This document shows positions 37,765 through 48,331 of a stretch of 64,000 nucleotides of DNA, in pieces. Where the stretch lies: positions 152,887 to 216,886 of the forward strand of contig NZ_MCUW01000078.1 of the NCBI RefSeq assembly GCF_002873335.1. Direction: 5' to 3'. The notes below the pieces were generated by a model. It made no database searches, was not told the DNA's origin, and saw nothing but the letters and a program-made list of their open reading frames with translations. Position numbers and translations under genes: made by a program. This DNA is from Vibrio sp. 10N.286.49.B1 (GTDB lineage: Bacteria; Pseudomonadota; Gammaproteobacteria; Enterobacterales; Vibrionaceae). How positions within the stretch are numbered: position 1 is the stretch's first letter; each line of letters starts with the position of its first letter.

Positions 37765-37780
37765 TAGACCGACCGGTTTG
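37765..37780 (+). promoter_or_regulatory. NemR-type operator, copy a (aldehyde dehydrogenase promoter)
   Basis: TAGACCGACCGGTTTG, a TAGACC-N4-GGTTTG near-palindrome. TAGACC also sits exactly where a -35 would be: 17 bases later comes TATAGT (37788-37793) as a -10. A repressor bound here would block the promoter. The ATG follows at 37823. Confidence 0.8.
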
Positions 37781-37822
37781 TTTTGTGTATAGTGACGTCA
37801 ACTCAACAATGAAGGTGACACA

Positions 37823-39238
37823 ATGACTCAAACCACGACAATCGAGAATATGGAATGTTCACTGGAAGCCATGCAGGCGGCATTTATGGGCTGTCCTATG
37901 CCTTCTTTTGAACAACGTATTGATAAGCTTACCGCCTTGAAAGATAAACTGATTCATCACAGTGATGATATATGTGAGTCAATGAATCTTGATTATGGTC
38001 AACGCAGTAAACAAGACACCCTCATTGCCGATGTCTTACCTTGTATTGGAAATATCGATCATACCGTTGCTCACCTTAAAGATTGGATGGCGCCTTCGGT
38101 TAGAAGTGCTGGGCCGCTGCTGTCTACCTCTACGGTTGAGGTGATCTATCAACCAATGGGTGTAGTCGGCATAGTGACACCTTGGAACTTTCCCATCATG
38201 CTTTCCGTTGGCCCCTTGATTTCTGCCGTGGCGGCGGGTAATCGTGCCATGATTAAAATGAGCGAATTCACTCCCCATACCAACCAGGTACTTCGACGCA
38301 TACTCGCACAAGTATTTACCCACCAAGAAGTCGTCGTAGTGGAAGGCGAAACGGAGGTGGCAAGTGCGTTTACTACAATGCCATTTGACCACTTGTTGTT
38401 TACTGGTTCGACATCGGTTGGACGATTGGTAATGAAAGCCGCTTCACCAAATTTGACGCCTGTAACGCTTGAATTAGGGGGGAAATCACCGGTACTCATT
38501 GCTGATGATGTGTCGATGGAACTAGCAGTCGAACGGATTATCTATGGTAAAAGTTTAAACAATGGCCAAGTTTGTGTTGCGCCAGACTATGTCTTGCTGC
38601 CAGAAGGCAAAGAAGAGGCTTTTATTACAGAGTATCAACGACAGTATGCGAATTTATTTCCCGATGGCGTAGATTCAGATAACTTAACATCGCTTGCTAA
38701 CTGTCGCCAATATGCACGAATTGATCGATTATTGAATGAAGAGCGTAAAGCTGGAACCCGTATAGAGCCTTGTCACCCCAATGATGTTCAGAGCTCTCAG
38801 AATCGTTTAGTGACGCAACTCATCATCAATCCTGATTTGCAATCGAATGTGATGACAGAAGAAATTTTCGGACCTTTACTGCCCGTGATTAGCTATCAAC
38901 ATATTGATCAAGCATTAGCGCTCATTACCGATAAGCCACGCCCTTTAGCGTTGTATCTCATGTCATTCGATACAGACCTACAATATAGAGTCAAAACTAC
39001 AATACATTCAGGTGGAATGTGCATCAATGACTGCGTTTTTCATCTTGCGGTTGATGACGCCCCCTTCGGTGGGATCGGTGAGTCTGGAAAGGGGCATTAC
39101 CATGGGCATGAAGGTTTTCTCACATTTTCTCATGCTAAAACGGTATTACAAAGTGGATCTGAACATCAGGTTAAACACTTGTTTACTCACGGCGATAATG
39201 CCTTTAAATCCGCGGTATTGAACCTTGTTGGTCAATAA
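37823..39238 (+). CDS. Aldehyde dehydrogenase (coniferyl-aldehyde dehydrogenase-like)
   Basis: 471 residues of the NAD(P)-dependent ALDH superfamily. The catalytic Glu lies in VTLELGGKSP and the catalytic Cys in NNGQVCVAPDYVL; the cofactor loop FTGSTSVGRLV is present. The length and the C-terminal segment match the CalB-type branch. It would oxidise an aldehyde to an acid in the cytoplasm. Its promoter carries the operator shared with the alcohol dehydrogenase and sulfatase-maturase units. The next gene starts 35 bases after its stop, so they form an operon. Confidence 0.9.
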   Translation: MTQTTTIENMECSLEAMQAAFMGCPMPSFEQRIDKLTALKDKLIHHSDDICESMNLDYGQRSKQDTLIADVLPCIGNIDHTVAHLKDWMAPSVRSAGPLLSTSTVEVIYQPMGVVGIVTPWNFPIMLSVGPLISAVAAGNRAMIKMSEFTPHTNQVLRRILAQVFTHQEVVVVEGETEVASAFTTMPFDHLLFTGSTSVGRLVMKAASPNLTPVTLELGGKSPVLIADDVSMELAVERIIYGKSLNNGQVCVAPDYVLLPEGKEEAFITEYQRQYANLFPDGVDSDNLTSLANCRQYARIDRLLNEERKAGTRIEPCHPNDVQSSQNRLVTQLIINPDLQSNVMTEEIFGPLLPVISYQHIDQALALITDKPRPLALYLMSFDTDLQYRVKTTIHSGGMCINDCVFHLAVDDAPFGGIGESGKGHYHGHEGFLTFSHAKTVLQSGSEHQVKHLFTHGDNAFKSAVLNLVGQ

Positions 39239-39272
39239 CATAACCCATCAGTTTAGTGATAAGGTAAGTGAC

Positions 39273-39716
39273 ATGTTAGAGCAGTTTTTTGAAAAAACGA
39301 TGAAGGCGTATTTAATCATCACCGGCGCATTAACCGCGACTGCATTTTTAACATTTTTGGCACCAGAGTGGAGTATGCAAAATCTATTTTTTTACTCTGA
39401 AGGTATGATGCAAAGCAAAGAATACTTGCAGGCGACCTATCAACATTGGGGAGTGATGGTTGGCTGTATTGGCGTGCTACTTATGTTCTCTGCTAAATTC
39501 AAACAACTACGTACATCGACGATGATTTATAGTGGTTTTGAAAAAGCAATGTTTGTTGGTTTGTTTTTATACAACGTTTGTGTCAATGATTACGAATGGT
39601 TTTATGGTTGGAGTGGGGTGTTTGCACTAGACGCGTTTGTCACTATCTATTCATTAGTATATTTGTTTTATTATATTAATAGAGACAAAAACAAAGTGCC
39701 GGCGCACCTTAGATAA
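39273..39716 (+). CDS. Small four-helix membrane protein of unknown function
   Basis: 147 residues from the ATG at 39273, which has AAGG upstream; an in-frame start at 39225 would overlap the dehydrogenase gene and is less likely. Four hydrophobic helices are visible (KAYLIITGALTATAFLTFLA near residues 11-30, a second in the HWGVMVGCIGVLLMF part, a third near AMFVGLFLYNVCV, a fourth near AFVTIYSLVYLFYY). I recognise no family. Its place in the operon suggests a helper of transport or detoxification. Confidence 0.7.
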   Translation: MLEQFFEKTMKAYLIITGALTATAFLTFLAPEWSMQNLFFYSEGMMQSKEYLQATYQHWGVMVGCIGVLLMFSAKFKQLRTSTMIYSGFEKAMFVGLFLYNVCVNDYEWFYGWSGVFALDAFVTIYSLVYLFYYINRDKNKVPAHLR

Positions 39717-39724
39717 TACTATTT

Positions 39725-39738
39725 CGAGATATATCTCG
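39725..39738. repeat. Perfect 14-bp palindrome after the membrane-protein gene
   Basis: CGAGATATATCTCG begins 9 bases after the stop codon and just before a terminator. It could be an operator or just a stable stem at the mRNA end. Confidence 0.6.
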
Positions 39739-39761
39739 GCATGCCTATAATATAGTTGAAT

Positions 39762-39800
39762 AAGGCCCAAAGAATATTTATTCTTTGGGCCTTATTCTTA
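39762..39800 (+). terminator. Terminator of the aldehyde dehydrogenase operon
   Basis: A perfect 13-bp stem AAGGCCCAAAGAA / TTCTTTGGGCCTT with a 6-base loop, followed by ATTCTT. Confidence 0.9.
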
Positions 39801-39860
39801 TTTAGCTTTTTTATATCATTGCCGAATAGTGTTTCTGACATATAATTGACATTAAATACC

Positions 39861-39876
39861 TAGACCGACCGGTTTG
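39861..39876 (+). promoter_or_regulatory. NemR-type operator, copy b (alcohol dehydrogenase promoter)
   Basis: The same 16 bases as copy a. TAGACC followed 16 bases later by TATTAT (39883-39888) gives the same promoter layout, and the ATG follows at 39918. Confidence 0.8.
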
Positions 39877-39917
39877 TTGTGGTATTATTTTGGTATCAAT
39901 TAAACGAGGAAAATATT

Positions 39918-41099
39918 ATGACCACGACTAATTATACATTTGAACTAAAAACCATCATTCATGCAAAAGAGAATGGTATTACGGATGTTCCCGCGTTGTT
40001 CCACCGTTTAGGGGCTAAGCGAGTGGTGTTGTTTACAGATAAAGGTTTAGAGTCGCTCGGGTTTGTTGAGCGTTTTAGTTCTATATTTGAATCACAATCA
40101 AATGTTGAAATTGTCGGTATTTATACGGATATTCAGCCTGATGCGACCTGCGACAATATTAACGCTGCGATTAGGTTTACTCAGTCAATCGAAGCGGATG
40201 CCATCCTAGCCATTGGTGGCGGTAGTGTGATTGATGCCTCGAAAGGTGTGAAATACGCTTTGCATAAAGGAGTGAACGATATTCGTGAAGTCATTGCTGG
40301 TGGGGGGCATATGGAAGTTTGGCCTAACAATGAAGATATAACGGTCCCACACATTGCTGTACCAACCACGGCAGGAACAGGAGCAGAGGCTTCTCCTATT
40401 GCTGTATTCTTTAATGAACACGAAAATATTAAGGCGAGTCTTGTTGTATCAGGTATTGAGGCAGATATTGCGGTACTTGACCCATTACTGACGGTAAAGC
40501 TTCCAGCGGCATTGACTCGTTCAACGGGAATGGATGCGTTAACACATGCCCTAGAAGCCATTGTGTCACCGATGAGTAATCCAATAACCGATGCATTTAG
40601 CCTTCATGCTGCGTCACTGATTATAGAGAACTTGCCGAAGGTATTAGTGGATGCTGACAACATTCTAGCCAGAGCAAACCTATTACAGGCCAGTACCATG
40701 GCAATTTCAGCTTTCTATTCTTCGTTGGGAGGCATTCCAATTCATAACGTCGCTCATGCGTTTGGCGCGATCAGTCATATCCCTCATGGCGATGCGAATA
40801 CTGTCTTGTTGCCACTTGTCATGGATGCATTACCTGAGTTTTATTTGAACAAGGCGAAGAAATTAGCACGCGCATTGAATGTTGATACGACGGGCACCGA
40901 TGAAATGGTGCTGCAGCGCGTAACGGGGTTCATAAAACAATTTCAAATGGAGATCGGAGCGATGACGAGCTTTGCTCTGTGGTCTATCAGTGAGCAAGAT
41001 AAAGTTGCTATTGTAGAAGCAGTAAAAAAAGACATCAGTTTTCAATTTTACCCAATGCCTGAAGAAAAAATAGAACATATTATTGAATCTGCAGTTTAA
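39918..41099 (+). CDS. Iron-containing alcohol dehydrogenase (group III)
   Basis: 393 residues from ATG 39918 with AGGA upstream; an in-frame start at 39879 precedes or overlaps the likely transcription start and is rejected. The NAD-binding GGGSVIDASK motif, the iron-binding GMDALTHALEAIV helix and the HNVAHAFGAISHIPHGDANT segment are present. It oxidises a primary or secondary alcohol, or reduces an aldehyde, in the cytoplasm. It shares its promoter design with the aldehyde dehydrogenase, which suggests a two-step alcohol-aldehyde-acid path. Confidence 0.93.
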   Translation: MTTTNYTFELKTIIHAKENGITDVPALFHRLGAKRVVLFTDKGLESLGFVERFSSIFESQSNVEIVGIYTDIQPDATCDNINAAIRFTQSIEADAILAIGGGSVIDASKGVKYALHKGVNDIREVIAGGGHMEVWPNNEDITVPHIAVPTTAGTGAEASPIAVFFNEHENIKASLVVSGIEADIAVLDPLLTVKLPAALTRSTGMDALTHALEAIVSPMSNPITDAFSLHAASLIIENLPKVLVDADNILARANLLQASTMAISAFYSSLGGIPIHNVAHAFGAISHIPHGDANTVLLPLVMDALPEFYLNKAKKLARALNVDTTGTDEMVLQRVTGFIKQFQMEIGAMTSFALWSISEQDKVAIVEAVKKDISFQFYPMPEEKIEHIIESAV

Positions 41100-41113
41100 G
41101 TCTTCATTAAATT

Positions 41114-41152
41114 AAGCCAATGGATTGGCAGTTATGAAGTGTTGGCTTTTTT
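41114..41152 (+). terminator. Terminator after the alcohol dehydrogenase
   Basis: AAGCCAA (41114-41120) pairs with TTGGCTT (41142-41148), followed by TTTT. A competing perfect hairpin GCCAAT-GG-ATTGGC (41116-41129) uses the same left arm, so the terminator may be partial and allow read-through to the next two genes. Confidence 0.6.
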
Positions 41153-41243
41153 CAAAATATTTGGTTCTAACACTTTCATATTTTTAAAACCCATCGTTAC
41201 TAGCTGTTTATTATTTAAATAGTGGTCTTAAAAGGTAGTTCAA

Positions 41244-41735
41244 TTGTTCAATAAATTGATTTGTATGTTATTGGCTTTTTGTGTGATATTGAGTGGTGCT
41301 TACTGCGTTATTAGTGATGAGAACTATTTGAATGCAGAAAACCTGGATTGTAATACAACAGTTATAGATTGCAATACAACGGTTATAGATTGCGATGCGC
41401 TTAATTTTACAAGTCATAATAAAGAGATAACAGATGCTAAATTAGTGCTCAACAATGCCTATAACGGGCATCAAAAGGCGCAAGTTAAGTTGGCAAATAT
41501 GTATTTGCAAGGCAATAACGTTGAACAAAATTCAACGAAAGCCGCCCATTGGTTTCAAGTGGCTGCAGACGCTGGAAACCCAGAAGCTCAGACTCAGTTA
41601 GCGCTTCTTTTTGCCTCGGGGAATGGGGTTGCTCAGAACGATAAAAAAGCGGTCTCTTGGCTAGGGAAGGCGGCGAATCAAAACTATTTGCCAGCTCTGG
41701 ATTTATTGCATTGGATGTCTCAGGCCGCACATTGA
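41244..41735 (+). CDS. Exported Sel1-repeat protein
   Basis: 163 residues with a probable TTG start at 41244, preceded by AAAGG. A hydrophobic signal (LICMLLAFCVILSGAYC) is followed by a low-complexity stretch where NTTVIDC is duplicated, then two or more Sel1-type repeats (AQVKLANMYLQGNNVEQNSTKAAHWF; AQTQLALLFASGNGVAQNDKKAVSWL). Sel1 proteins are protein-interaction scaffolds. It lies directly before sulfatase 1. The function here is unknown; a periplasmic partner of the sulfatase is a guess. Confidence 0.75.
   Translation: MFNKLICMLLAFCVILSGAYCVISDENYLNAENLDCNTTVIDCNTTVIDCDALNFTSHNKEITDAKLVLNNAYNGHQKAQVKLANMYLQGNNVEQNSTKAAHWFQVAADAGNPEAQTQLALLFASGNGVAQNDKKAVSWLGKAANQNYLPALDLLHWMSQAAH
41346..41393. 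repeat. 21-bp tandem duplication inside the Sel1 gene
   Basis: Two consecutive 21-base units (GATTG[T/C]AATACAAC[A/G]GTTATA) and the start of a third. They keep the frame and create the NTTVIDC heptapeptide twice, a recent in-frame duplication. Confidence 0.85.
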
Positions 41736-41788
41736 TATTCACTTAGTTATTCACAATTACGTTTCAATTATTTATTAAGGTAAACATA

Positions 41789-43537
41789 ATGGCACCATTA
41801 AATAAGTCTATGGTATGTTCCGCTATATTGGCCGCCTCTAGTAGCGTTTTTGCATCTCAAGATCCAGATAAGCCAAATATCGTCATTATTGTCGGTGATG
41901 ACGTGGGGTTTGCTGACACGCAGCCTTATGGCTCTGAGGTCAATACGCCCAATTTGATGGCGTTGGCAGAAGAGGGGATTAAATTTACTAATTTTCACGC
42001 CTCTCCAACGTCGTCAGTTACTCGCTCTATGATGTTAACTGGAGCGAATAATCATGAGGTGGGACTAGGGACGTTTGACTATGCCGTCTACCCTGACTCG
42101 ATTGGTAAACCTGGCTATGAAGGATATTTAACGAAAAAAGGACTAACGGTATCAACGTTACTGCAAGATAACGGTTACCACACATATCTTGCGGGTAAAT
42201 GGCATCTAGGACACGAGGATGGTTTCCTACCTGACGACAGGGGCTTTGACGAGAGTTACGGCATATTAGCCGGTGGATCCAATCACTTTAACCGTAATAT
42301 GATGTTCCCAGCGAAAAGTGCCGCAACCGCTGAAGCGTTACAAAAAGGACAGATGCCAGGCATTGAGCAAGAGCAACTATATCGAAATGGTCAAGTAGTC
42401 GAAGATCAATACAAAGGTGAGTATTCCGATCAAGTGTATACCAATGAAATCATCAAAATGATTGATGCTAATAAGGAGGATGGCAAGCCGTTCTTAGCCT
42501 ATGTACCGTTCACTGCAATACACTTGCCGTTGCAGGCGCCAGAGCATACCTACCAAGATAAGATTAATTACTACGTAGAGCATGGCTGGGACACCATACG
42601 AGAAGATCGCTTTAATAAAATGAAGGCGCTGGGTGTCATACCTAATGACGCATCAATGGCAAGCCGAAACAGCATGAGTCGACCTTGGGATTCATTAACG
42701 GACAAAGAACAGGCTTGGTATGGTAAAAAGATGGCGGTGGCCATGGGTATGATGGAGCTTCAAGACCAGCAAATAGGCCAGATCACCGACTACCTTAAAG
42801 ACATTGGTGAATATGATAATACCTACATTATTTATCTTGCGGATAATGGACCAGAAGCCGCAGACGTGACCGGTGAAAACATGAGCGATTTAATTCGTAC
42901 ATGGACTGAGCACCATTTCGATAACTCGACAGATAATATCGGTAACGAAAATTCAAGTGTGTCACTTGGGCCTGAGTGGGCCAATGCATCTACTGGTGGG
43001 TTATCTTGGTTTAAAGTTTATACGGCAGAAGGTGGCATTCGTGTGCCGTTTATAGTTAAGCCACCAAAAGGTGTGCTTGACGCAGAAGGGGCGTTGGCAG
43101 CAGGGTCGCAAACCAACAGTATGTCGCAAGTCAAAGATGTGGCAGCAACGATTCTAGATATTGCAGATATTCAGCACCCTGGAACCGAATATAAAGGCCG
43201 AGAGGTAGCGCCTATGAGTGGTGTTAGTTTGTTGCCATTTATGGCAGGTAAGCAGAAAGAGGTTCACTCGTCCCAAAATCCAATCGGTTTCGAACTCTTT
43301 GGAAGTGGCATGTTATTGAAAGGCGACCATAAAATCATAAGAATTTCAGTTGGAATGGGGGGAGATAATGAATGGCATCTTTACAATACTAAGTTAGACC
43401 CAGCAGAGCAAAACGATTTACGTCGCCAATATCCAGAATTATTTAATGAAATGATGAAGGACTACCAACGCCATGAAGAGACGTACAATATTATCCCTGT
43501 TGATGACAAATGGAACCCGTTTGAAGTGGTTAAATAG
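41789..43537 (+). CDS. Sulfatase 1, Ser-type arylsulfatase-like, exported
   Basis: 582 residues. A signal peptide (cleavage near FA-SQ, residue 22) sends it to the periplasm. The body matches the Pseudomonas AtsA-type arylsulfatase: IVGDDVGFADTQPYG with the calcium-binding Asp pair near residue 37, GKPGYEGYLTKKG, and AGKWHLGHEDGFLPDDRGFD. The residue to be turned into formylglycine is Ser75 in SSVTR (75-79). The usual pattern is C/S-x-P/A-x-R, and here Val replaces the Pro/Ala. A Ser-type site needs the radical-SAM maturase encoded at 47000-48247. The substrate is unknown. Confidence 0.92.
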   Translation: MAPLNKSMVCSAILAASSSVFASQDPDKPNIVIIVGDDVGFADTQPYGSEVNTPNLMALAEEGIKFTNFHASPTSSVTRSMMLTGANNHEVGLGTFDYAVYPDSIGKPGYEGYLTKKGLTVSTLLQDNGYHTYLAGKWHLGHEDGFLPDDRGFDESYGILAGGSNHFNRNMMFPAKSAATAEALQKGQMPGIEQEQLYRNGQVVEDQYKGEYSDQVYTNEIIKMIDANKEDGKPFLAYVPFTAIHLPLQAPEHTYQDKINYYVEHGWDTIREDRFNKMKALGVIPNDASMASRNSMSRPWDSLTDKEQAWYGKKMAVAMGMMELQDQQIGQITDYLKDIGEYDNTYIIYLADNGPEAADVTGENMSDLIRTWTEHHFDNSTDNIGNENSSVSLGPEWANASTGGLSWFKVYTAEGGIRVPFIVKPPKGVLDAEGALAAGSQTNSMSQVKDVAATILDIADIQHPGTEYKGREVAPMSGVSLLPFMAGKQKEVHSSQNPIGFELFGSGMLLKGDHKIIRISVGMGGDNEWHLYNTKLDPAEQNDLRRQYPELFNEMMKDYQRHEETYNIIPVDDKWNPFEVVK

Positions 43538-43594
43538 TCCCCCTCTTTGTAACGAAAAATAGACCTATCAAAGTCAATAATTATAAAAGAAACG

Positions 43595-43627
43595 GGGTGG
43601 TCACGATGTCGTTGTTCGTGATCACCC
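43595..43627 (+). terminator. Hairpin after sulfatase 1
   Basis: GGGTGGTCACGA (43595-43606) pairs with TCGTGATCACCC (43616-43627) with one G-U pair. It lies about 60 bases past the stop; the T-run is poor, so it may be factor-assisted or a stability element. Confidence 0.55.
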
Positions 43628-43733
43628 ATTGCTTGTTGTTACCTAGTATGTCCGCCTTTTTGACCAATGACGACCTTTTTAACCAATGAGAGGGGGGAAC
43701 ATCATAATTGATAATTCTTTGGCAACATGAAAA

Positions 43734-43749
43734 TAGACTGGACGGTCGG
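43734..43749 (+). promoter_or_regulatory. NemR-type operator, copy d (TetR regulator promoter)
   Basis: TAGACTGGACGGTCGG, i.e. TAGACT-N4-GGTCGG, the most diverged of the four copies but with the same spacing. It overlaps a promoter TGGACG (43739-43744) – 17 bases – TATACT (43762-43767). Location just before the regulator gene indicates autoregulation. Confidence 0.7.
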
Positions 43750-43798
43750 TATGTGGCGTTTTATACTGTGCGAAAGACCAAGATTTAGGAGCCCAATA

Positions 43799-44383
43799 AT
43801 GGTTGATTTAAAACAGGCTTTACTTGATGCCGGTTTTCGCTTAATCAGTGAACACGGTTACGCTGGCATTGGAATAATGAAAATTATTCAGGAAGCGAAT
43901 GGGACGAAAGGTTCATTTTATCATCACTTTAAGTCTAAAGAAGATTTTGGACGGGTACTGCTAGAGAATTACTTTGAAGAACATCTCGAGATTTTAAATC
44001 AATATCTTGATGATGCCGCATTTTCATTCCCTGAGCGTGTGATTAATTATTTTGAGTTTTGGTCACAATCTAAAGTGACCGAAGACTTTCAAATTCAATG
44101 CTTGGTCGTTAAGTTAGCGGGAGAAATGTCAGGTACGTCATCGAGCATGCAAAACGAGTTGGCAATCGGATCTGAAAAAATTATTACGCGGATGAGCGAT
44201 TTCTTTGACATGGGGAATCAAACGGGCGATTTTTCTATCGACGAGCCTTATATTACATCAAGAATGCTTTACGGGAATTGGCTAGGTGCAACGTTGATCT
44301 GTGCGCTACAAAAAGATCGAGTCTTACTGAGTGATGCGATGACAACTACAAGGCAAATTATTGGTGTGAAAGAGACCCGCTAA
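43799..44383 (+). CDS. NemR-like TetR-family repressor
   Basis: 194 residues from the ATG at 43799, which has AGGAG 7 bases upstream; an earlier in-frame ATG at 43727 lies upstream of the promoter and is rejected. The helix-turn-helix is near residues 23-44 (IMKIIQEANGTKGSFYHHF). QCLVVKLAGEM (Cys101) aligns with the CLTVKLSAEV of E. coli NemR, whose Cys106 senses electrophiles and hypochlorous acid. NemR's Lys175, as I remember that sequence, appears to align with an Ala here, next to a Cys. It probably senses aldehydes or other reactive products and controls the four nearby promoters. Confidence 0.85.
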   Translation: MVDLKQALLDAGFRLISEHGYAGIGIMKIIQEANGTKGSFYHHFKSKEDFGRVLLENYFEEHLEILNQYLDDAAFSFPERVINYFEFWSQSKVTEDFQIQCLVVKLAGEMSGTSSSMQNELAIGSEKIITRMSDFFDMGNQTGDFSIDEPYITSRMLYGNWLGATLICALQKDRVLLSDAMTTTRQIIGVKETR

Positions 44384-44407
44384 TACATTTACAAAATTTT
44401 GTAAGAA

Positions 44408-44437
44408 CAAAAAAGGCTACAAGGTAGCCTTTTTTTG
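44408..44437. terminator. Bidirectional terminator between tetR and sulfatase 2
   Basis: Perfect stem AAAAAGGCTAC / GTAGCCTTTTT with a 3-base loop, flanked by A and T runs. It serves the convergent regulator and sulfatase 2 transcripts. Confidence 0.93.
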
Positions 44438-44467
44438 ATTAGATATACGTGTCGATTAAATTAAAGG

Positions 44468-45970
44468 CTAACGTCCAAGCCCAGATGCATCAACTCCTTC
44501 TTGCTGGGAGGTAACTGGTGGCCATTCTTCAAATGTAGCCAATAGCTGCGCGACAGCGGCTTGGGCTGGTCCAAAGGCCCACATTTTTTCGCCCATCCAC
44601 TTGATGTACATTCCAGACTCTTCGGCCGCTCTTTCGTAAGGGTCGCGACGTAAATTGAACAACAATGGTGCGTTGAGTTCTTCTTTTGCGCCACTCCAGC
44701 CCTCATTCTGTACAACAAAGTGCGCCTTCCAGTCACCAACACGAACGGCTTGCAACTTATCTCTTTCGTAGTAATAGATTTCTTTTCGGTTCGAAGGCTT
44801 ACCCTCCGTGAGCATCGGCATTTGATTGTAGCCATCCAAGTGCGCTTTATAGCCTTTGAAGCCGTTAAGCATTTGCTGTTTGAGATCTGATGGACCACCG
44901 GCTGCGGCAACAAGAGTTGGCAACAGGTCCATACCATCAACAATGCCATTATTTACGGTATTGGCGGGGATTTTAGCGGGCCATTGAACAAGAAATGGCG
45001 CTCGAACGCCGCCTTCCCACGTTGTGCCTTTCTCTCCGTGAAACGGTGTCATGCCGCCGTCCGGCCATGTCATTATTTCGGGTCCGTTGTCGGCGGTGAA
45101 AATGATAATAGTGTTATCTGCGATGCCGAGTTCTTCGATTTTGGCGAGCATTTCACCGACGTGGTCATCGAGATCCTTCATCACCACTTCTTGAAGTCCC
45201 CAACCGTTTTGGCCCAGCATGGCTTCGTATTTTGGTGAAAGGTGTGTCCAAACATGGCCTCTTGAAGGGCAGTACCATGTAAAGAACGGCTTTTCATCTT
45301 TAACGGCTTGCTCAATAAATCTTATTGTGTGCTTGTTGACCTCGTCGTCCAGCGTTCGCATTCGTTCTTTGGTCAATCTGCCATCGTCTTCAATGGTTTG
45401 GCCACCTTTACCGTCTGACGTTGCGTGAATGACGTTTCTGGGTGCAAATTTTTGAAACGCTTCATCTTTAGGCCAATCTGGATCTTCGGTATATTCCATG
45501 GCATTGAGATGGTACAGCCAGCCCCAGTACTCATCAAAACCATGCATCGTAGGAAGGAATTCGTCTCGGTCACCCAGATGGTTTTTCCCGAATTGACCCG
45601 TGGTATAACCAAGCTCGCGTAATATTTCCGGCAGGGTGGGCGTATCTGGGTTTAGACCAACAGGTCCGCCAGGCAGCCCAACGGAATGTAAGCCCGTTCT
45701 CACGGGTAATTGTCCGGTCAGAAACGCAGAACGTCCCGCCGTACACGATGGCTGAGCGTAATAATCGGTCAGCAACATGCCTTTTTCGGCGATGCTGTCA
45801 ATATTTGGTGTATCGCTACTCATGACGCCGTTGTGGTAAGCGCTTAAGTTCGAGATGCCGACATCATCGGTAAAAATGACAAAAATGTTAGGTTGATCTT
45901 GCGCGGCGGACACCCCAAATGTCGCGAGGTAACCACACGCAAAAGCCAATAAATGAATAATCCTTTTCAT
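44468..45970 (-). CDS. Sulfatase 2, Cys-type arylsulfatase-like, exported
   Basis: 500 residues. A signal peptide ends near SAA-QDQ (residue 23). The formylglycine site is Cys76 in CTAGR (76-80), a C-x-A-x-R pattern of the kind accepted by anaerobic-type maturases. Metal site VIFTDDVGISN, GKNHLGDRDEFLPTMHGFDEY and IFTADNGPEIMTWPDGGMTPFHGEKG are standard sulfatase parts. It closes the operon that starts with the maturase and follows a small membrane-protein gene after 18 bases. The sequence is only distantly like sulfatase 1, so the two probably act on different esters. Confidence 0.93.
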   Translation of the reverse strand: MKRIIHLLAFACGYLATFGVSAAQDQPNIFVIFTDDVGISNLSAYHNGVMSSDTPNIDSIAEKGMLLTDYYAQPSCTAGRSAFLTGQLPVRTGLHSVGLPGGPVGLNPDTPTLPEILRELGYTTGQFGKNHLGDRDEFLPTMHGFDEYWGWLYHLNAMEYTEDPDWPKDEAFQKFAPRNVIHATSDGKGGQTIEDDGRLTKERMRTLDDEVNKHTIRFIEQAVKDEKPFFTWYCPSRGHVWTHLSPKYEAMLGQNGWGLQEVVMKDLDDHVGEMLAKIEELGIADNTIIIFTADNGPEIMTWPDGGMTPFHGEKGTTWEGGVRAPFLVQWPAKIPANTVNNGIVDGMDLLPTLVAAAGGPSDLKQQMLNGFKGYKAHLDGYNQMPMLTEGKPSNRKEIYYYERDKLQAVRVGDWKAHFVVQNEGWSGAKEELNAPLLFNLRRDPYERAAEESGMYIKWMGEKMWAFGPAQAAVAQLLATFEEWPPVTSQQEGVDASGLGR

Positions 45971-45988
45971 ACACGTTCCTTGTATAAC

Positions 45989-46369
45989 TTATTGATGCGA
46001 CCGTCTGATCATAATGAGTCCGACTAAGCCAAAACCGAATTCTAGAATAAGGTAAAATATCAGTAAGGCATTGGGTGGACCGTCGATAGATATACTGACA
46101 ATACGCCCAAACGCTAAACCAACCATAAAAACTACTAGGTTATAAAGAGCGGGTAGTCTCATTTTATCAACGAAAGCTCCTACTACCCAGAATATGCCTG
46201 TTGCTAGATATAGCCCCATAATGGCGCGGAAAATATGTGTTGTGTTGACTGTGTTGATCTCTATATCAAAAAGAAAAGGCAAAGAAAGGGCAGGCGATAG
46301 CCCGTAACACAGTGCAATAGGTGCTAACCCCGAGCTAGCAATGAGTAGAAATATACTTTCAGGTTTCAT
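45989..46369 (-). CDS. Small four-helix membrane protein, DUF4345-like
   Basis: 126 residues with four hydrophobic helices. The opening SSGLAPIALCYGLSPALSLPFLF and the IFRAIMGLYLATGIFWVVGAF segment resemble the DUF4345 family as I remember it. No catalytic motif is visible. It lies between the other membrane protein and sulfatase 2, 18 bases before the sulfatase gene. A role in uptake or export of sulfatase substrates or products is only suggested by position. Confidence 0.7.
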   Translation of the reverse strand: MKPESIFLLIASSGLAPIALCYGLSPALSLPFLFDIEINTVNTTHIFRAIMGLYLATGIFWVVGAFVDKMRLPALYNLVVFMVGLAFGRIVSISIDGPPNALLIFYLILEFGFGLVGLIMIRRSHQ

Positions 46370-46518
46370 CCTTAGTCTTTCCTCTTATCCGCATAATAAT
46401 CAATGTAGTACAAAAGCTAGGTGTCTCAAGTTTGGAAGGCCAGCTTTTACTTATTTTTTGTCGTTAACTCGAACGTGTAGGTTAATGTATCGTGATTCAA
46501 GTACAGTAAAATTGGGCG

Positions 46519-47010
46519 TTAGTGCAGCCAAGTCTCGATGGTGTTGGGGATTAAGGTCTCCAATTCGATGTAAGCGCCAAAGTTTAGATACAAGAATCCG
46601 AAATAACTCATTCCGCTCCAAAGCAGTATAGAAAGAGTTAAAAGGGAAAACGTACGCACAGCACTTTGCTTGAGACGTTTTGACAATAGCGTGTAAATGG
46701 GGATACCGATTAAAAGGGGCGCTAATAGCGCCATGCAAAATTGGCCATATCGGTGCCACATCCTTAGAAATCGGCGTAGTCTAGGTCGGAAAACAACGCG
46801 TTGTTTAATCGTCATTCGATTGAAAAGTCTCGGCCCTAGCCACCACCCAAAATAGCCAGCCATCAATGCAGGGAGAACATTAAATAGCACCATTTCTGGG
46901 TAGCTATATGACAGCATTGCTGCAAGCGCCGGCCCTGAATACGTTTTCCATATACTGAGTAGCGCCATTGCGAAAGCAATGGCCGCGTACGAGTTAATGT
47001 CAAAGCCCAT
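46519..47010 (-). CDS. Unknown polytopic membrane protein in the maturase operon
   Basis: 163 residues with about four hydrophobic helices and a basic loop in the middle (RMTIKQRVVFRPRLRRFLRMW). No family recognised. Its ATG lies 11 bases inside the end of the maturase gene, so translation is coupled. The neighbourhood suggests a dedicated partner of sulfatase use, for example sulfate or alcohol transport, but the sequence does not show it. Confidence 0.7.
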   Translation of the reverse strand: MGFDINSYAAIAFAMALLSIWKTYSGPALAAMLSYSYPEMVLFNVLPALMAGYFGWWLGPRLFNRMTIKQRVVFRPRLRRFLRMWHRYGQFCMALLAPLLIGIPIYTLLSKRLKQSAVRTFSLLTLSILLWSGMSYFGFLYLNFGAYIELETLIPNTIETWLH

Positions 47011-48247
47011 TTTCGTCTCTTTTTAGCAATGGATAACCGTTGTTGACCAGTAGCAAGGATAGGACAGGATCGATGTGTTTGAAAAAAGCTATCCAGCCAT
47101 CGCATAGATAATTGAGTCCTGGTTGGCCTTGTTCTGTGTAAGCGATCCGGTTTTTAGGGCATTCACCATGACAGGCAAATAAATAGGGACATTGTTTGCA
47201 CTGATTGGGGAGTGATTTCTGTTTGGCAAAACCAAACTGTTGCTGCTTTGATGAAAAGGCAAGTTTTTTGAGCTCTGTCTGGTGAATGTTGCCGATTGAA
47301 AATTCAGGGTAAACGTAATGATCGCATGAGTAGACTTCGCCATTAGGTTCGACTGCCAGTCCTTTACCGCAGATCTCACTGAGGGTACACATGGTACTGG
47401 GCTTCCCCATCCAGACTCCCACAAAATTTTCAAAGTATGGGATCATCACCTTACCAAAATCGTTATGGAACCATTCATCAAAAATAGTGATCAGAAAGGC
47501 TCCCCATTGGTCGGCAGAGACACTCCAGGGTTCGACCGCTGCTTTGACGGGAATAATGTTCATCGCTCCCCATTTAAGCCATTGATTGTTGGTGGGAGCC
47601 GAGACTTTATCGACCACCGGAATAAACTGCATCTGTGGTGAACGAACCTCGTCACGTAGAAAGCGATACACCTCAAGTGGCTGTGAGCCGGTGAGGTTGT
47701 TAATACAGGTCAAGGTCGCAAAGTTGACTTGGTGTTCTTGAAGTAAACGAATCCCTCTCATGGTCTTATCAAACGTCCCACGCCCTGCTTTATTGGTTCT
47801 ATAGCGATTATGTAGAGATTCAGGACCATCAATACTGACGCCAATGATGAAGTTATGGTGTTTGAAAAATGCACACCACTGAGGCGTTAATAAGGTCGCA
47901 TTGGTTTGTAAATCGTTGCTAATGGAAGAGTGAGGAGGACAGAAGCGCTTTTGCAGCTCAACCACTTTTTCAAAGTACTCAATACCAAGTAGTGTTGGCT
48001 CTCCGCCGTGCCATGAAAAAACAATCTCTGCGGTATTTTGGCCTTCGATATATTGGCGAATATAGGTCTCCAATCGTTCATGGCTCATGACCGACTCTGG
48101 TTGGCTTGCATAATCGAGGAGTTGTTGTTTATCGAGATAATAGCAGTACGTACAATCGATATTGCACAAGGCACCGATGGGTTTAGCGAGTGCTTGAAAT
48201 TTATTGTGGGCTTTACCGTTGAACTGTGGAACTGAAAAGTCGGTCAT
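47000..48247 (-). CDS. Anaerobic sulfatase-maturating enzyme (radical SAM)
   Basis: 415 residues from the ATG at 48247; a longer frame starting at 48313 begins upstream of the predicted transcript start and is rejected. The radical-SAM cluster CNIDCTYC has Cys28, Cys32 and Cys35. The C-terminal SPASM domain has the many cysteines (CTLSEICGKGLAVEPNGEVYSC; CKQCPYLFACHGEC) that hold two auxiliary clusters, the signature of anSME. It converts Cys or Ser of sulfatases to formylglycine without oxygen. It is the first gene of its operon and lies with two sulfatases that need it. Confidence 0.93.
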   Translation of the reverse strand: MTDFSVPQFNGKAHNKFQALAKPIGALCNIDCTYCYYLDKQQLLDYASQPESVMSHERLETYIRQYIEGQNTAEIVFSWHGGEPTLLGIEYFEKVVELQKRFCPPHSSISNDLQTNATLLTPQWCAFFKHHNFIIGVSIDGPESLHNRYRTNKAGRGTFDKTMRGIRLLQEHQVNFATLTCINNLTGSQPLEVYRFLRDEVRSPQMQFIPVVDKVSAPTNNQWLKWGAMNIIPVKAAVEPWSVSADQWGAFLITIFDEWFHNDFGKVMIPYFENFVGVWMGKPSTMCTLSEICGKGLAVEPNGEVYSCDHYVYPEFSIGNIHQTELKKLAFSSKQQQFGFAKQKSLPNQCKQCPYLFACHGECPKNRIAYTEQGQPGLNYLCDGWIAFFKHIDPVLSLLLVNNGYPLLKRDENGL

Positions 48248-48315
48248 TAAAAGCGGCCTCTTTGATGGTAATTGAGTATCCGTTCTCAAGCAGATGTGGC
48301 CTAGAATAAACAAAA

Positions 48316-48331
48316 CAAACCGGTTGGTCTA
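48316..48331 (-). promoter_or_regulatory. NemR-type operator, copy c (maturase operon promoter)
   Basis: On the minus strand TAGACCAACCGGTTTG, one base different from copies a and b. TAGACC is followed by 17 bases and TATTCT (48308-48303), the same promoter layout as copy a. This puts the transcript start after the early ATG at 48313 and supports a start at 48247. Confidence 0.8.

Follow-up and report, generated by a model that had tools for sequence, protein, structure and literature searches.

What holds together two sulfatases, a sulfatase maturase, an aldehyde dehydrogenase (ALDH), an iron-containing alcohol dehydrogenase (Fe-ADH) and a TetR-family repressor within 10.6 kb of a Vibrio genome, and what might they do together? 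The question arises from contig NZ_MCUW01000078.1 of Vibrio sp. 10N.286.49.B1 (5.15 Mb, 89 contigs), of which a stretch of 64,000 nucleotides, hereafter the window, was analysed; all coordinates are positions in it. An initial annotation had claimed that four promoters of this locus carry one and the same element and that a NemR-like regulator joins sulfate-ester cleavage to alcohol and aldehyde oxidation. Here, I show that exact copies of the operator are inherited together with the regulator across the genus, at genes of the cluster as well as at genes lying elsewhere; the explanation favoured, if modestly, is a TetR regulon for the use or detoxification of hydrophobic sulfate esters.

The operator and its promoters

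All four promoter elements exist, each with 0 mismatches to the pattern TAGACYNNNNGGTYNG: O1 (TAGACCGACCGGTTTG, 37765..37780, plus strand) overlaps the -35 of the ALDH promoter, O2 (TAGACCGACCGGTTTG, 39861..39876, plus) lies in the Fe-ADH promoter, O3 (TAGACTGGACGGTCGG, 43734..43749, plus) stands before the TetR gene and is putatively autoregulatory, and O4 (TAGACCAACCGGTTTG, 48316..48331, minus) heads the minus-strand run maturase-mem2-DUF4345-sulfatase 2, about 69 bases before the ATG at 48247. On the plus strand the genes are ordered ALDH-mem1, then Fe-ADH-Sel1 protein-sulfatase 1, then TetR. A fifth exact match, at 45653 (plus), falls within the sulfatase 2 gene and is taken as chance, since no operator site was seen inside that gene in 49 related loci. 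The whole genome holds 8 exact matches, 5 of them in these 10.6 kb, and such matches are informative, unlike loose ones: with 2 mismatches the window gives 38 matches against 32.3 expected from shuffles, which is not above chance, and with 1 mismatch the genome gives 141, below the 298 of the backward control, so that the loose motif alone proves nothing. Two exact matches were dropped, one on contig C27 for lying inside a 771-codon open reading frame (ORF), the other on C41, where no long ORF begins next to the site.

TAGACC had further been read as the -35 of three promoters with 16-17 bases to the -10, and so it stands: the distance is 17 to TATAGT (ALDH), 16 to TATTAT (Fe-ADH) and 17 to TATTCT (maturase). 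In the TetR promoter the -10, TATACT, lies 22 bases from TAGACT. Taken by themselves, promoter-like sites occur no more often than shuffled sequence would give (24 against 24.5). A longer TetR ORF from 43727 would include O3, for which reason ATG 43799 is most likely the start.

Conservation is concentrated on the element itself. Before ALDH it stands inside the anchored interval in 39 of 42 upstream regions (38 distinct sequences), and its 16 bp are conserved at 0.99, compared with 0.52 (-60 to -21), 0.70 (-20 to -1) and 0.67 (+1 to +25) in the surroundings; before Fe-ADH (26 of 33 upstream regions, 24 distinct) the values are 0.98 for the element and 0.75-0.86 around it. Seven Fe-ADH upstream regions have no anchored element: one (L157, genome G030) carries it 158 bases upstream, and the other six come from V. 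mediterranei/maritimus-type clusters, in which Fe-ADH follows ALDH in one gene run. Separately, many relatives have TTGACA or TGACA some 10-15 bases before the operator in both their ALDH and their Fe-ADH promoters (in the window at about 39846-39851); this element recurs at equivalent places, and may be a second promoter or an activator site, although it misfits a 16-18 spacing to the visible -10.

Gene by gene, the strict element TAGAC[CT]N4GGT[CT] was counted within 200 bases upstream over 58 stretches, some of them overlapping in origin. It precedes ALDH in 37 of 41 copies (at 37-44 bases), Fe-ADH in 27/33, a second-type Fe-ADH in 6/6, TetR in 40/50, and an NAD(P)-binding SDR gene in 13/16, some of these through the element of a divergent TetR promoter. 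It is found before 10 of 45 maturase, 4 of 23 mem2 and 2 of 19 DUF4345 genes, and before two flanking genes that diverge from regulon promoters (CinA 5/9, ACT 1/3); mem1 (0/35) and Sel1 (0/22) have none. Among all other ORFs it precedes 11/576, seven of which are divergent to a regulon promoter or regulon-like (five outer-membrane-like, one ALDH-like, one SDR-like).

The operator travels with the regulator

Among 227 genomes of the genus, 45 others besides this one encode an orthologue of the TetR protein (53-69% identity), with a clear gap below them, the next among the matches listed being at most 37% identical. The 15-mer TAGACCGACCGGTYT gives 73 matches in 45 of the 227 genomes, all 45 with a TetR orthologue, that is in 45/46 TetR genomes and in 0/181 without TetR (Fisher p = 5.6e-47, uncorrected for relatedness); read backwards as a control, it gives 10 scattered matches. 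The sole TetR genome without it, G038, has the one-base variant TAGACTGACCGGTTTG before ALDH, about 14 kb from TetR. In the same genome a TetR-sulfatase 2 piece occurs twice (L164, L165), on different replicons and in near-identical surroundings, adjoining repeated 302-aa genes that look transposase-like by eye.

As many as 69 of the 73 matches are no more than about 10 kb away from the TetR gene. The four distant ones are found at an SDR gene of this genome (contig C20), at a small membrane protein gene (C3) and its counterpart in G090, and at a second-type Fe-ADH gene (G076, matched to V. inusitatus). The C20 site (L035:3426) is a perfect palindrome, TAGACCGGTCGGTCTA, and SDR genes of its type stand divergent from TetR in relatives. 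In four other Vibrio (G046, G202, G120 and G164), too, an unlinked SDR gene keeps the element. The comparison across Vibrio genomes that the initial annotation had called for, whether operator copies move with the genes, is thus borne out, and because genes lying elsewhere keep the element the regulon is regarded as real and wider than four sites; the earlier count, right for the sites it named, fell short by one more convincing unlinked site (C20) and one possible site (C3).

In relatives such as G044, the SDR heads a run with chalcone-isomerase-like, DUF302 and DUF3332 proteins. The operator before the small membrane protein gene (TAGACCGACCGGTCTG; L037:4335 on C3, and L228:841) is conserved in one other genome, and an MscS-type mechanosensitive-channel gene comes next on C3. 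Named carriers of the system are V. barjaei, V. qingdaonensis, V. mediterranei, V. maritimus, V. methylphosphonaticus and V. fortis, as well as V. inusitatus, V. superstes and V. comitans; the last three were reportedly isolated from abalone gut, an origin in keeping with sulfate esters that come from algae or animals.

A repressor of its own clade

The TetR gene (43799..44383, plus; PF00440) had been described as NemR-like with a sensor-type cysteine. The cysteine stands: at the position of NemR Cys106 it is found in 50/50 rows (49 related loci and the window). At the position of Lys175, which I take to be the partner of Cys106 in the NemR redox pair, 50/50 rows have Ala. In a tree with 15 other TetR proteins, 24/24 orthologue rows form one branch (support 100/99); the tree has several long branches, which make the neighbours of this clade less sure. 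The best NCBIfam model is CurR (NF058643; 158.3 bits, below the curated cut-off of 300), and the nearest solved structures are 3rd3/4l62, presumably PA2196 (126 bits), compared with 88 bits for NemR (4yze). By these sequence comparisons the protein is related to CurR/NemR but forms a clade of its own, and is not NemR. The nearest other TetR of the genome, at 34% identity on contig C10, adjoins CurA-, GST- and NemA-like genes (names by eye); since this paralogue also has the sensor cysteine, the residue is seen as a family trait. What is described for NemR is a thiol:sulfenamide switch (PMC9600549).

That the TetR of the window acts on these predicted sites is very probable. The contrary view, that they belong to another TetR of the genome such as the CurR/NemR-like C10 paralogue, could appeal to the relatedness of operator sequences (TAGACCGACTGGTCTA before E. 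coli nemR), but it is scarcely credible, as the promoters of the paralogue itself and of the CurA-like gene each carry a different, 15-bp operator-like sequence, TAGACGACTGGTCTA, and many genomes without a TAGACCGACCGGTYT site are listed with a paralogue at 31-37% identity.

The enzymes and their company

The ALDH (37823..39238, plus; PF00171) has both the catalytic Cys in GQVC and the Glu in ELGG. It is class-3-like, closest to steroid, fatty and aromatic aldehyde dehydrogenases, the nearest solved structure being the steroid aldehyde dehydrogenase 9nxl (345 bits). A steroid or bile substrate, which that structure might suggest, was set aside, the resemblance being at the level of the family only and no search for steroid genes having been made. 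Orthologues (63% and more) occur in 40/46 TetR genomes and 0/181 others; in G083 there are fragments on a contig end. The second gene of the unit, mem1 (39273..39716, plus), encodes a small membrane protein without a Pfam family above cut-off; where found in relatives its copies are 70-84% identical and mostly beside ALDH, and in the V. mediterranei/maritimus-type clusters none was found. A strong intrinsic terminator with an 18-pair stem (39758..39797, plus) separates mem1 from Fe-ADH (39918..41099, plus; PF00465/PF25137), which scores, far below cut-off, with lactaldehyde reductase among others. The Sel1-repeat protein (41244..41735, plus; PF08238) sits between Fe-ADH and sulfatase 1 wherever it was found in related loci.

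Both sulfatases belong to PF00884 (149 and 170 bits; cut-off 25), carry the [CS]xxxR signature and have, by eye, a signal peptide. Sulfatase 1 (41789..43537, plus) is Ser-type and arylsulfatase-like, its nearest solved structure being the P. aeruginosa arylsulfatase 1hdh (375 bits), and its signature SSVTR is constant in 39/39 matches. In this signature Val takes the place of the Pro or Ala that is usual among formylglycine sulfatases. At 46% identity and more, sulfatase 1 is found in 37/46 TetR genomes and in 1/181 others, the exception being G083, an assembly 79% complete in 1370 contigs, where one contig carries pieces of ALDH, Fe-ADH, sulfatase 1 and maturase. The maturase (47000..48247, minus) is a radical SAM/SPASM protein that scores 487 bits with TIGR03942 (cut-off 349) and has CxxxCxxC (CNIDCTYC) at residues 28-35. 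Ser-type sulfatases depend on this anaerobic class of maturase for their formylglycine, and the joint occurrence of sulfatase 1 and maturase is ascribed to that dependence.

Sulfatase 2 (44468..45970, minus; PF14707 in addition) is Cys-type, with CTAGR in 22/22, and its nearest solved structure is the fucoidan-active PsFucS1 (7aj0, 230 bits). At 81% identity and more it occurs in 37/46 TetR genomes and in 16/181 others, on which ground its obligatory membership was rejected. Its partner is the DUF4345 membrane protein (45989..46369, minus; PF14248), which adjoins it in 7/7 of the unlinked or TetR-free copies read. Upstream in the run lies mem2 (46519..47010, minus), a membrane protein with a weak Pfam hit only, which is operator-headed beside the SDR in G202, G120 and G205. 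The SDR itself (orthologues of 52% and more) occurs in 15/46 TetR genomes and 0/181 others, with an element of its own at 10/15 and, in G205, within the operator-headed mem2-SDR run; of the paralogous SDR genes examined, 0/15 have the element.

In several genomes an outer-membrane-like protein stands divergent to ALDH or mem1, with a common operator region (L262:6214-6987, L263:5107-5910, L285:11191-11970), and it also stands beside unlinked sulfatase 2-DUF4345 pairs. DUF481 is above cut-off for the L263 copy and below it for that of L262, the others having been assigned by eye; the protein is a candidate uptake or sensing partner.

Beyond the genus

In a sample of 150 genomes of the family, the TetR was found at E 1e-50 or better in 16. 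Eleven of them, counting the present one, belong to the genus and five to other genera; one of these five, G253, matches at the position seen in L084, Enterovibrio calviensis. The element stands before ALDH or mem1 in four of the five and before TetR in G237, where an SDR gene and an ALDH gene (47-48% identity) adjoin TetR.

One route or several?

From the comparison, common operators overlapping the -35, a site before the repressor's own gene and co-inheritance are apparent in the sequences; binding, repression, inducer and substrate are inferred. A dedicated TetR repressor would bind TAGAC[C/T]N4GGT[C/T]tG, overlapping the -35 of its target promoters, and would repress its own gene together with the regulon. 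The old core of the latter may have been ALDH with a small membrane protein, along with Fe-ADH and the NAD(P)-binding SDR; in Vibrio it would have taken in a periplasmic Ser-type sulfatase and the radical-SAM maturase making its formylglycine and, in some lineages, this genome included, a second, Cys-type sulfatase. Its function would be the use or detoxification of hydrophobic organic sulfate esters. These would lose their sulfate in the periplasm, and the alcohol would then be oxidised in the cytoplasm, first to an aldehyde and next to an acid; the repressor would be released by an intermediate, be it the aldehyde or the free alcohol. That the esters are hydrophobic is suggested by the type of ALDH and by the likeness of sulfatase 1 to arylsulfatases. 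The route from sulfate ester through alcohol and aldehyde to acid is plausible; that all the enzymes serve one route is favoured by a narrow margin of confidence, and that an intermediate, likely an aldehyde, is the inducer is a possibility held at somewhat less than even confidence.

Several observations weigh against this explanation. Neither sulfatase has an operator of its own within 200 bases upstream (0/40 for sulfatase 1, 0/17 for sulfatase 2), and both are therefore read as downstream operon genes; yet about 145 bases separate Fe-ADH from Sel1 in the window. The strict element is missing at 10/50 TetR orthologues and 4/41 ALDH copies, and the Fisher p is overstated because related genomes are not independent. 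Fe-ADH could act as a reductase, and no transporter for the product was identified. Sulfatase 2 is optional in the regulon: none of the seven unlinked or TetR-free copies read has the strict element (two loose-pattern matches lie inside genes), and the unlinked copy of G202, the one such locus scanned, is near a LacI-type regulator, a family 4 glycoside hydrolase and a glyoxalase-superfamily protein, the first two of which hint at sugar substrates. Together with the proteins related to sulfatase 2, these distant neighbours point to sugars. Outside the genus, tblastn (E 1e-4) detected nothing related to either sulfatase or to the maturase in the five stretches of about 20 kb from other genera. 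Likewise, tblastn found no sulfatase relative in Colwellia (L078), Motilimonas (L085, 14 kb), G156 (L186, 13 kb) and G057 (L196), the maturase being present in the L085 and L186 stretches. The older core thus looks like aldehyde oxidation, and the sulfatases seem to have been recruited later, though the shortness of the stretches calls for caution. Hence the claim of a regulon joining sulfatases to alcohol and aldehyde oxidation holds insofar as both stand in operator-headed gene runs, and has to be narrowed as regards sulfatase 2 and the relatives in other genera.

The alternative that survives best, though a rather unlikely one, takes the system for a NemR-type regulon of aldehyde (electrophile) detoxification, in which ALDH, Fe-ADH and SDR would clear any toxic aldehyde and the sulfatases would have joined by neighbourhood, not as upstream steps. 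It would account for the sulfatase-free core of other genera (TetR with ALDH or mem1 or SDR), for the NemR-type cysteine kept throughout and for the optional sulfatase 2; moreover, G225 has an NADH:flavin oxidoreductase gene (PF00724, the family of NemA) some 1.4 kb before TetR, and G044 has a similar-looking one, by eye, at about 5 kb, both without the strict operator. It leaves unaccounted for, however, that sulfatase 1 is almost confined to TetR genomes (37/46 against 1/181) and that the maturase has its own operator in 10/45 copies, and the CurA/GST/NemA-like set of this genome is placed beside the C10 paralogue instead.

Improbable, more so than detoxification, is an algal or host glycan sulfatase cluster, with both sulfatases acting on sulfated sugars and the dehydrogenases on sugar-derived aldehydes, e.g. 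lactaldehyde. The likeness of sulfatase 2 to PsFucS1, the weak lactaldehyde reductase score of Fe-ADH and the G202 neighbourhood, with similar-looking genes at the unlinked sulfatase 2-DUF4345 pairs of G121 and G203, would speak in its favour; but these sugar-type neighbours stand at unlinked sulfatase 2 copies without operator, no glycoside hydrolase or lyase was recognised in the operator-headed runs of 14 loci (read by eye, not scanned), the ALDH is nearest to steroid, fatty and aromatic aldehyde dehydrogenases, and sulfatase 1 is nearest to a small-molecule arylsulfatase.

Relation to known systems

Like E. coli NemR with nemA and gloA, an autoregulated TetR-family repressor that shares the position of the sensor cysteine, the present TetR has a NemR-type operator before its own gene, E. 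coli nemR being preceded by TAGACCGACTGGTCTA, which is close to TAGACCGACCGGTTTG. The present proteins differ in forming a separate clade and in having Ala for Lys175, and the operator-headed targets are sulfatase, alcohol and aldehyde dehydrogenases here and an ene-reductase and a glyoxalase in E. coli; in the 14 loci read, no nemA- or gloA-type gene stands behind a strict operator, flavin oxidoreductase genes lying nearby in two. To the CurR/PA2196-type regulators the TetR is linked by its best model and best structures; it differs in scoring below the CurR cut-off, and the CurR-like gene of this genome sits with CurA-, GST- and NemA-like genes under another operator.

Choline-O-sulfate catabolism, like the present locus, combines a sulfatase with alcohol and aldehyde dehydrogenases. 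That pathway (betI, betC, betA, betB) is controlled by BetI, a TetR-family repressor over catabolic genes (PMC12442346). A TetR-family repressor over these three enzyme classes is thus common to both systems, whereas the sulfatases here score 60.9 and 92.3 bits against a choline-sulfatase cut-off of 433, the TetR scores 21 bits against a BetI cut-off of 201, and the enzyme subfamilies are unrelated. A sulfatase followed by alcohol and aldehyde oxidation has also been proposed for alkyl sulfates in the slf/SDS operon of the Psychrobacter plasmid pP62BP1 (PMC3346939); the likeness is in these steps, while slf has a metallo-beta-lactamase-type sulfatase, a GMC oxidoreductase and AraC in place of a formylglycine sulfatase, Fe-ADH and TetR. 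The logic of repressor, sulfatase and alcohol and aldehyde oxidation is known from bet and slf, and the parts here are unrelated. The assertion that no described system has this combination therefore holds for the gene set, since no account of this regulon turned up in the literature searched (which mostly leaves out subscription papers), but not for a TetR repressor over a sulfatase and alcohol and aldehyde oxidation as such.

Conclusions

To sum up, the favoured reading remains an operator-defined regulon that links dehydrogenases with one specific Ser-type sulfatase and with the maturase of that sulfatase. A fuller picture can be offered only tentatively: a dispersed aldehyde-sensing regulon in which a TetR protein with a lone reactive cysteine, the lysine partner of NemR having been lost, would couple two activities, the removal of sulfate from marine hydrophobic esters (alkyl, steroid or phenolic) in the periplasm and the oxidation of alcohols and aldehydes. 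Such a regulon would have been built by placing the same 16-bp operator before genes at several places of the genome. For most marine sulfatases neither inducer nor substrate is known, and release of the repressor would offer a direct assay for finding the natural sulfate ester. The regulon would also present a case of operator copies recruiting genes, with sulfatases that belong to it in Vibrio but were not seen close by in the five relatives examined from other genera.

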